A stretch of 22,449 bases of DNA from a virus, in the IMG/VR virus record IMGVR_UViG_3300020172_001414, positions 1 through 22,449 of that record; one strand, given 5' to 3'. Shown in pieces: positions 1-1,777 of this stretch. Under the pieces are notes generated by a model, which was given only the letters and a program-made list of their open reading frames with translations, was not told the DNA's origin and did no database searches. The position numbers were made by a program, and so were the translations under genes. Position 1 is the first letter of the stretch. Every line of letters starts with the position of its first letter.

Positions 1-958
1 AGGCTTCATCAGAAGCTTTATCCCAAGGTAAGTCCAGCCCCTCACGATTAAAATCATTGAGCATCAAACTTAGAATTGGGCTGGTGTTATCTAACACTGT
101 GTCAAGTGTTTCCATTAGGGATGCTTGCACACCTTTGCTAGAAAACATAAGAACTGGGGATTCTGCTCCACGCATACGGTCAGTGTTAAAGAACTTGTCA
201 ATCATCTGACGAACGGTTGTTCGTGAAACACCAGCGTCTAGTAGAAGCTTGATTGTTCTGCGGAGAATGTTCATGTCCTGAAAAGAATACGAACAAACCA
301 TTACTGATCTGGGATGGTACACAAAGTAACTAGCCAAGTCGTTTACCTCTGGTCGAGGTTTACGTTTTACTGGTTCTTCAACCTTTGCTTTTTCGTTTAC
401 GTCTGCGCCAAGAATCATATCCTCTACCTTATCACGAGGGCCATCGGCCTTCTTTACGGTTTTATTACTATTACTCTCTATTATTACTATTTCTCTAGAG
501 ATCAGCGCTTTTGTTACCTGTGCTGGTGTTATGTTCATTTTGATAGGGTCATGGGTGACCCTATCAGGGGTAGTGGGTAGGGTCATGGGTGATCCTATTG
601 AGGGGGTTGTGTTGGTGGTTGATAGGGTCATGGGTGACCCTATTGCTGGTTGTGTGTAGTTAATAATGTAAGTGTTTGGCTTTGGTTTTTGTCGTAATTT
701 TGTTGTGATTATTTGTTGCTCTGAGAGCCATTTGAGTGATCGTTTTACAGTTTCTTTTGAAGTGTACGATGCATCAGCAATCTCTTGAATGGACGCCGAA
801 ACAGATTTGTTATGGATGTGCATCATTGAAACAAGGCATGTTAAAACCTGCAGATCGCGTGGTTGACCATGCTTAAAAATGAGGGGCACTGCCCACTCAG
901 GGACTGCTAAAAAGCGTCCACCAAAAACGTTACTGGTTCCCATTGGACTAGTGATCAT
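1..958 (-). CDS. Winged-helix replication-initiator-like protein (C-terminus cut by window edge)
   Basis: A minus-strand frame is open from an ATG at 958 to the left edge (319 residues visible, no stop). An in-frame TGA lies just upstream of the ATG, so 958 is the first possible ATG; a GGAGGTGA element sits about 12 bases upstream, slightly far. An ATG at 943 is the alternative. Residues about 35-100 look like a helix-turn-helix/winged-helix domain of the phage Rep/DnaD type, with IQEIADASYTSKETVKRSL as the helix-turn-helix and a basic wing ending in NTYIINY. Residues about 105-140 are a Thr/Pro/Ser linker encoded by three DNA palindromes. Residues 155-205 are charged and probably unstructured. 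Residues about 205-300 form a second folded, helical part. By analogy with lambda O this suggests an initiator carrying its own origin. A transcriptional regulator with operators inside its gene is the alternative. No helicase or loader gene is in view. Confidence 0.72.
   Translation of the reverse strand, partial: MITSPMGTSNVFGGRFLAVPEWAVPLIFKHGQPRDLQVLTCLVSMMHIHNKSVSASIQEIADASYTSKETVKRSLKWLSEQQIITTKLRQKPKPNTYIINYTQPAIGSPMTLSTTNTTPSIGSPMTLPTTPDRVTHDPIKMNITPAQVTKALISREIVIIESNSNKTVKKADGPRDKVEDMILGADVNEKAKVEEPVKRKPRPEVNDLASYFVYHPRSVMVCSYSFQDMNILRRTIKLLLDAGVSRTTVRQMIDKFFNTDRMRGAESPVLMFSSKGVQASLMETLDTVLDNTSPILSLMLNDFNREGLDLPWDKASDEA
459..644. other. Candidate replication origin (iterons plus A/T-rich stretch)
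   Basis: Just downstream of the iterons in the coding direction, bases 459-497 are almost purely A/T with TTATTACTATTA at 462-473 repeated as TTATTACTAT at 481-490. Iterons followed by an A/T-rich repeat tract inside the reading frame of a DNA-binding protein is the arrangement of the lambda origin within gene O, where the A/T-rich part melts. That this segment is an origin is inference; the repeats and base composition are directly visible. A cluster of operator sites is the main alternative. Confidence 0.45.
542..644. repeat. Three 24-bp palindromic iterons inside the initiator-like gene
   Basis: Copies are at 542-565, 576-599 and 621-644. The consensus has 10-base arms GATAGGGTCA and TGACCCTATC around the spacer TGGG. 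Copy 1 is a perfect inverted repeat, copy 3 differs at the last base, and copy 2 differs at three positions. Start-to-start spacing is 34 and 45 bases, a difference of 11, close to one helical turn. Copies 2 and 3 are read in the same frame (both give IGSPMTL), while copy 1 is read in another frame (DRVTHDPI). The shared element is therefore the DNA sequence and not a peptide repeat. Probably binding sites for a dimeric protein, most likely the encoded initiator. Confidence 0.85.
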
Positions 959-1033: not shown

Positions 1034-1468
1034 ATGAAAGATTTAGCCAAGTCGCTCAAAGTGTTAGTGTCTGATGTAGTTACATTCTACTTTATGGCAC
1101 ATGGTTATCACTGGAATGTGGAGGGCCAGGACTTCAGCCAGTACCATTCATTGTTCTCGGAGATTTACGAAGATGCATACGGGTCAATTGACCCAATTGC
1201 TGAAAACATTCGTAAGTTGGATGATTATGCTCCCTTTAGTCTTCAAAAATTCCTTGATCTAAGAACTATTGATTTCAAGGATGTTCAACCTAATCCTAAG
1301 GCAATGGCTAAGTCATTGCTAACAGCAAACGATTCTCTTCTTGTATCTCTTAAAGATACCTTTGAAGCTGCTATGAAAGCCGATGAACAGGGTATTGCTA
1401 ACTTCTTGTCAGAGCGTATTGACATGCACCAAAAATGGGCTTGGCAACTTCGAGCCTCAACCAAGTAA
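1034..1468 (+). CDS. dps: Dps-family ferritin-like DNA protection protein
   Basis: The 144-residue protein is a compact four-helix ferritin-like Dps. The family signature HGYHWNVEG is near the N-terminus, and the residues that form the inter-subunit ferroxidase site in Dps proteins are in place by spacing: His26, His38, Asp53 and Glu57, with PIAENIRKL following. Dps proteins form dodecamers that oxidise Fe(II) with peroxide and store iron, and many also bind DNA. There is almost no basic N-terminal tail here (only K3, K6 and K9), so DNA binding may be weak or supplied by the neighbouring lysine-rich proteins. A strong AAGGAG site 5 bases upstream fixes the start. It heads a three-gene plus-strand cassette opposite to the structural operon. 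A host-derived gene used to protect phage DNA from oxidative damage is plausible. Confidence in the family is high; the role in infection is inferred. Confidence 0.93.
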   Translation: MKDLAKSLKVLVSDVVTFYFMAHGYHWNVEGQDFSQYHSLFSEIYEDAYGSIDPIAENIRKLDDYAPFSLQKFLDLRTIDFKDVQPNPKAMAKSLLTANDSLLVSLKDTFEAAMKADEQGIANFLSERIDMHQKWAWQLRASTK

Positions 1469-1477
1469 GGAGCCGAC

Positions 1478-1777
1478 ATGGTAGAAAAAAAGAAAGCCCC
1501 AGCTAAAAAGACAGCCGCTTGGTCTCGTGCCGAGGGCAAAGACCCCAAGGGTGGTCTTAACGAAAAAGGACGTAAGTCTTACGAGCGCGCAAATCCCGGC
1601 AGCGACCTTAAGCCTCCGGTAAAGAAAGAACAGGCCGCTAAGTCTGAGAAGTCAGCAGCGCGTCGTGATTCTTTCTGTGCGCGTATGGAAGGCATGAAAA
1701 AAAAGAACACTTCATCAAAAACAGCCAACGATCCTGACTCCCGTATTAACAAGTCCTTGCGGGCTTGGGATTGCTGA
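1478..1777 (+). CDS. Small basic protein, DUF6321-like
   Basis: The 99-residue protein is rich in Lys, Ala and Ser. It starts with a Lys/Ala/Pro-rich tail (KKKAPAKKTAA), followed by the conserved-looking blocks SRAEGKDPKGGLNEKGRKSY, RRDSFCARMEGMK and a C-terminal SLRAWDC. This pattern matches the small DUF6321-type proteins I recall from many environmental phages and some bacteria, whose function is unknown. Two cysteines (in SFCARM and the terminal residue) are at positions that look conserved. The start is set by AAGGAG at 1467-1472, which overlaps the dps stop codon, so it is cotranscribed and probably coupled with dps. The N-terminal tail resembles that of the next protein, and histone-H1-like tails in general, so nucleic-acid binding is a reasonable guess. 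Confidence 0.8.
   Translation: MVEKKKAPAKKTAAWSRAEGKDPKGGLNEKGRKSYERANPGSDLKPPVKKEQAAKSEKSAARRDSFCARMEGMKKKNTSSKTANDPDSRINKSLRAWDC

Follow-up and report, generated by a model that had tools for sequence, protein, structure and literature searches.

Genes and sequence features at the locus

The stretch of DNA analysed here, called the window, is 22,449 nt long, and all positions are window coordinates unless a gene position is stated. It opens with an initiator-like gene that runs beyond the window edge, its 3' end lying outside, and 319 aa of the product are encoded within the window; the complete protein of its relatives has 421 aa. In an AlphaFold2 model of the initiator-like protein (mean pLDDT 66), a winged helix (residues 23-99) is followed by a disordered linker (residues 105-200) and a helical C-terminal domain (residues 203-420), and the linker spans three inverted repeats, here named dyads, together with an AT-rich element (Table 1).

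Table 1. Features of the initiator-like gene and of its neighbours in the window
Feature	Position	Strand	Remarks
Initiator-like gene	2..958	minus	winged helix, linker and C-terminal domain; replication-initiation PHROG matches
GC-rich inverted repeat GGCC-nnn-GGCC	439..449		immediately beyond the AT-rich element; covarying arms in relatives
AT-rich candidate DNA unwinding element	452..501		least stable 50 bp of the gene, in a conserved position; less stable than its codons demand
Dyad/iteron 1	541..566		gene position 399, frame 2, peptide RVTHDPI
Dyad/iteron 2	577..598		gene position 365, frame 1, peptide IGSPMTL; one core mismatch
Dyad/iteron 3	622..643		gene position 320, frame 1, peptide IGSPMTL
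Dps/ferritin-like gene	1034-1468		divergent from the initiator
DUF6321 gene	1478-1777		after the Dps/ferritin-like gene; divergent from the initiator

Of the PHROG matches given by five divergent members of the protein family, most are to replication initiation, O-like or DnaD-like families, and the winged helix is at the centre of the matched region. The initiator-family sequence matches are weak (best 5.9e-8) and those to O-like PHROGs range from 1.8e-6 to 0.06, both mainly across the winged helix. Neither Phage_rep_O nor RepA_N (PF06970) was matched in Pfam at E<=1 by the window protein or at E<=0.1 by five relatives, and the sub-threshold Pfam matches of the initiator-like protein were to regulators. 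The top PDB fold matches are the NTDs of RepA_N initiators (4pql, 4pt7 and 5kbj) and are not significant (E 0.03-0.09, best 0.034; TM (target) ~0.47); viral fold matches include A0A6J5N5Y0, a close homolog (42%) annotated only as an HTH protein, as well as lambda O-type proteins and a replisome organizer. As far as sequence can tell, no curated family is matched above threshold and the protein family is unannotated.

The dyads share the consensus GGTCAnnnnTGACC and occur in three copies within the winged-helix gene, in two reading frames. Dyad 1, TGATAGGGTCA-TGGG-TGACCCTATCA, has 11-bp perfect arms around a 4-nt asymmetric centre, dyad 2, GTAGGGTCA-TGGG-TGATCCTAT, carries two mismatches in its arms, and dyad 3, ATAGGGTCA-TGGG-TGACCCTAT, has 9-bp perfect arms. 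Their chance expectation is 0 (0 matches in 100 shuffles of the window). An earlier note on this DNA had described three near-perfect palindromes in an initiator-like gene, with copies 2 and 3 encoding the same peptide and copy 1 read in another frame, and this is what the sequence reads; the start-to-start spacings of 34 and 45 that it gave are correct, and the predicted structure supports its placement of the palindromes in the linker between the winged helix and the C-terminal part. The note had further put the bound proteins on one face of the helix. The helical repeat of B-DNA is 10.5 bp, and this part of the claim has to be softened to an approximate alignment, because across the family a lattice of 11.25 bp fits the spacings better than one of 10.5 bp.

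The genes around the initiator were compared among relatives. In 18/18 loci checked a DnaC-like helicase loader lies just downstream of the initiator, and in 17 a Dps-like gene stands ahead of the initiator. A 94-kb relative has the order initiator, DnaC-like loader, 147-aa protein, DnaB-like helicase, primase and SNF2-type helicase, with a family A polymerase (polA) further along in the same cluster; the same relative carries a queuine tRNA-ribosyltransferase-like gene (L072:12237-13664). Two further observations were made in the window beyond the genes of Table 1: a tiny ORF (~1790-1903) encodes a basic peptide that is rich in lysine and alanine and begins with a cysteine-rich segment (MCAACGCG...KKKAAPAKKAAPKKK), and a terminator-like inverted repeat between convergent genes (1938-1965; CAAAAGGCCCCC/GGGGGCCTTTTG) has 12-bp perfect arms and a 4-nt loop.

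The initiator family belongs to uncultivated tailed phages, BRock-related myophages. Among cultured phages, the closest to them are those of the Streptomyces BRock group, whose major capsid protein is ~55% identical; this kinship suggests an actinobacterial host. A host search by initiator found no relatives in GTDB genomes.

The dyads are conserved as DNA

Relatives came from protein searches, DNA-pattern searches and alignment, which together yielded up to 46 viral loci. All homologs whose sequence covers the whole linker, down to ~36% protein identity, carry 3-4 dyads there; the sequences of L070 and L137 end before the linker dyad region and stand outside this count. The palindromes of the earlier note are thus present in related genes and in differing frames: all of frames 0, 1 and 2 are used, frame 0 only once. 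Adjacent dyads are spaced by 22/23, 33/34 or 44/45 bp, and the pairwise distances fit 11.25 bp with R 0.956 versus R 0.67 for 10.5 bp; one lattice position filled in other lineages is without a site in the window's clade. In 12 phage records (~0.93 Mb), exact RGGTCANNNNTGACCY was found only in the initiator gene, and one-mismatch matches outside this gene were few. Single GATCC-variant copies that the DNA pattern retrieved in L026, L027 and L031 lie on fragments without an initiator homolog, and we rejected them as probably due to chance.

Resampling of synonymous codons in 15 non-redundant genes gave a mean of 5.3 sites and a maximum of 10, versus 53 observed. Between L036 and L043, a comparison that reaches the farthest-diverged sequence in the clade of the window, none of 22 dyad codons shows a synonymous change, versus 90/331 codons elsewhere; the constraint proposed on the DNA is supported by this difference and by the use of up to three frames. 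The remaining linker evolves fast at the protein level, with 17/49 codons changed between the same two genes. Among 47 distinct sites, positions 5-7 of the dyad core are nearly invariant and the outer arm pairs are often broken.

An AT-rich element and a GC-rich hairpin accompany the dyads

In 16/16 homologs the 50-bp segment of lowest stability is found at gene position 431-462, within the top 0-0.4% of the locus, and in 10/10 further homologs at gene position 419-427. In 14/14 genes the AT-rich element is less stable than synonymous resampling usually gives (P<=0.011); these gene counts are not independent because the genes are related. The window's own element is moderately extreme, with 0.5% of positions less stable. 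Its codons show 0/19 synonymous changes between L036 and L043. At gene position 457-506, L036 and its relatives have TAG/TAA/AGA trinucleotides, with codons strongly skewed to ATA, GTA and AGA, a make-up that superficially resembles DnaA-trio repeats. We set this reading aside as a curiosity: on the gene strand TAG/TAA runs 5'->3' away from the iterons, unlike the DnaA-trio consensus, which is 3'-GAT-5' (PMC8287927).

The hairpin arms vary by lineage yet remain complementary, the variants being GGCC/GGCC, AGGCC/GGCCT, GTCGC/GCGAC, GCCGC/GCGGC, GACCGC/GCGGTC, GTCCCC/GGGGAC, GCTCCC/GGGAGC and GGCTG/CAGCC. Summed over 17 genes, which again are related and not independent, the hairpin signal lies above all 2000 synonymous resamplings (z 7.6), and 13 control windows range from -0.3 to 3.3. 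This covarying GC hairpin, on which the earlier note is silent, may be a new origin part.

Winged helix and dyads may change together

A scan based on the loader, independent of the initiator and of the dyads, yielded the loci L185-L189. The gene upstream of the loader there (L185:3132-3998) matches the initiator over nothing but its C-terminal domain and is without the winged helix, and exact dyads are absent from these loci, which keep the DnaC-like loader and the C-terminal domain. The joint absence of winged helix and dyads may represent one evolutionary event. In summary, dyads, AT-rich element and hairpin are conserved as DNA, and the dyads are missing where the winged helix is missing.

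Natural variants of the sites were found in two non-sister lineages. In L063/L067 the dyad cores are altered symmetrically to AGGTCA at 2/3 sites, and in L138 they are altered symmetrically to TGTCA at 3/3 sites. Among the 23 remaining sequences, 48 protein columns show no variation, and of these K72, in the recognition helix, alone differs in both lineages. Because a chance coincidence in two lineages amounts to ~4/48, we regard this covariation as suggestive only, with K72 as a candidate specificity residue.

A predicted origin within its own initiator gene

We consider it highly probable that these phages have a lambda-O-like replication origin that is embedded in its own initiator gene and bound by the product of that gene. 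The lambda O logic had already been put forward in the earlier note, and it is supported by the dyads, the replication-initiation PHROG matches, the AT-rich element and the replication gene cluster. The predicted origin would extend from ~643 down to ~439 (minus-strand reading), in the linker-coding part of the gene. Winged-helix dimers would bind the 3-4 GGTCAnnnnTGACC iterons, a prediction that the joint absence in L185-L189 and the K72 covariation support indirectly, and the array of bound dimers would strain and melt the adjoining AT-rich element, with the GC-rich hairpin bordering the opened region; to judge from gene order, the C-terminal domain and the DnaC-like loader would then recruit the phage's own DnaB-like helicase and primase. 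On a bolder reading, which we rate as less likely than not, the hairpin would be a third, separately evolving part of the origin and might offer single-stranded DNA on which the DnaC-like loader with the helicase, or the primase, lands, fixing the direction of the first fork, and the 11.25-bp iteron lattice would impose a spiral or underwound initiator filament. GC skew in four long records was weak and inconsistent and gave no clear origin signal. Also weighing against the origin reading are the weak initiator-family matches, the fold matches short of significance, the departure of the lattice from 10.5 bp, the small number of lineages (two) behind the K72 covariation and the moderately extreme AT-rich element of the window.

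The dyads could instead form an intragenic operator, at which a winged-helix transcription factor represses or road-blocks its own gene in a region that is no origin. Winged-helix domains are common among regulators, to which the sub-threshold Pfam matches also point, and autoregulation is frequent among replication initiators; the same dyads could serve as both operator and origin. However, no exact dyad occurs outside the gene in the 12 records, hence none at the initiator promoter, and an operator leaves unexplained the conserved AT-rich element, the hairpin and the linkage to the helicase loader; we judge an operator alone to be unlikely. Action in the mRNA, with hairpins that control translation or decay of the initiator transcript, is very improbable. 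Folding as RNA is conceivable for the dyads and for the GC hairpin, the arms of the latter covary, and position 2 of the dyad arms is often G-U in the sense strand, but the dyad core is kept as sequence beyond what pairing asks for (positions 5-7) even as outer pairs break, and RNA folding accounts neither for the 11-bp lattice nor for the AT-rich element.

A partition site of the centromere type, to which the winged-helix protein would bind, has a slighter chance still. Some centromere-binding proteins are winged-helix proteins (fold matches 5k5q and 4rs8); the gene order is nevertheless that of a replication module, and the subset of proteins that was scanned showed no partition gene. It is scarcely credible, finally, that the dyads stem from mobile palindromic units, comparable to the Rickettsia palindromic elements, which settled in a linker that tolerates insertions. 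Copies in differing frames within a disordered linker would suit such units, but the lack of exact copies elsewhere in ~0.93 Mb of phage sequence largely refutes them, and the conserved lattice positions, the zero synonymous change in dyad codons and the coordinated change of arms in all three L138 copies speak against them as well.

The origin reading assigns a likely initiator and origin to uncultivated BRock-related myophages. With ~46 loci, natural site variants, a lineage without winged helix and dyads, and K72, the family also offers a system for the study of initiator-origin coevolution.

Comparison with known systems

The BRock group shares with the phages described here the replication cluster of DnaC, DnaB and primase. 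It differs in that a search of the phage collection gave no homolog of the initiator and that the replication regions searched (L091 and L092) have no exact dyad. BRock gp120 and LuckySocke gp104 were considered as initiator homologs and rejected, with no PHROG support, no dyads and no AT-rich element.

In lambda, the origin lies inside O, where four inverted-repeat iterons of 18-19 bp are accompanied by an AT-rich tract of 38-39 bp (PMC7466680, PMC3349717, PMC6022878); the iterons bind O dimers (PMC5043065), and the Stx phages P27 and 933W have the same lambda-type arrangement with six iterons (PMC7466680, PMC3349717, PMC6022878, PMC5043065). Common to these systems and to ours are an N-terminal DNA-binding domain and, within the initiator gene, inverted-repeat iterons and an AT-rich tract; as in lambda, a helicase loader gene adjoins the initiator gene. 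The phages here differ from lambda in that they have a DnaC-like AAA+ loader instead of P, encode their own DnaB-like helicase and primase, use another iteron sequence, carry a covarying GC hairpin after the AT-rich element and give no Phage_rep_O match in Pfam scans of their proteins.

The Rep protein of pSK41 has a DNA-binding winged-helix NTD, an origin-encoded linker and a CTD that recruits primase, with four Rep boxes located centrally within rep (PMC5703833). For the present family, RepA_N NTD structures are among the top fold matches, which are not significant, and the candidate origin elements lie within the linker-coding part of the gene. There is no RepA_N Pfam match, the replicon is a phage and not a plasmid, and the dyad centres are mostly GC-rich, whereas those RepA_N iterons that have been characterised mostly converge on a poly-A tract (PMC7145576).

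An origin within the initiator gene is thus an arrangement already known from lambda O and pSK41 RepA_N. The present family would add lambda-like origin logic in a protein whose sequence shows no clear kinship with O or RepA_N, a case relevant to the question whether an origin within the initiator's linker is a recurrent solution. The family appears to work like lambda O and pSK41 Rep while lying outside the curated sequence criteria of both.
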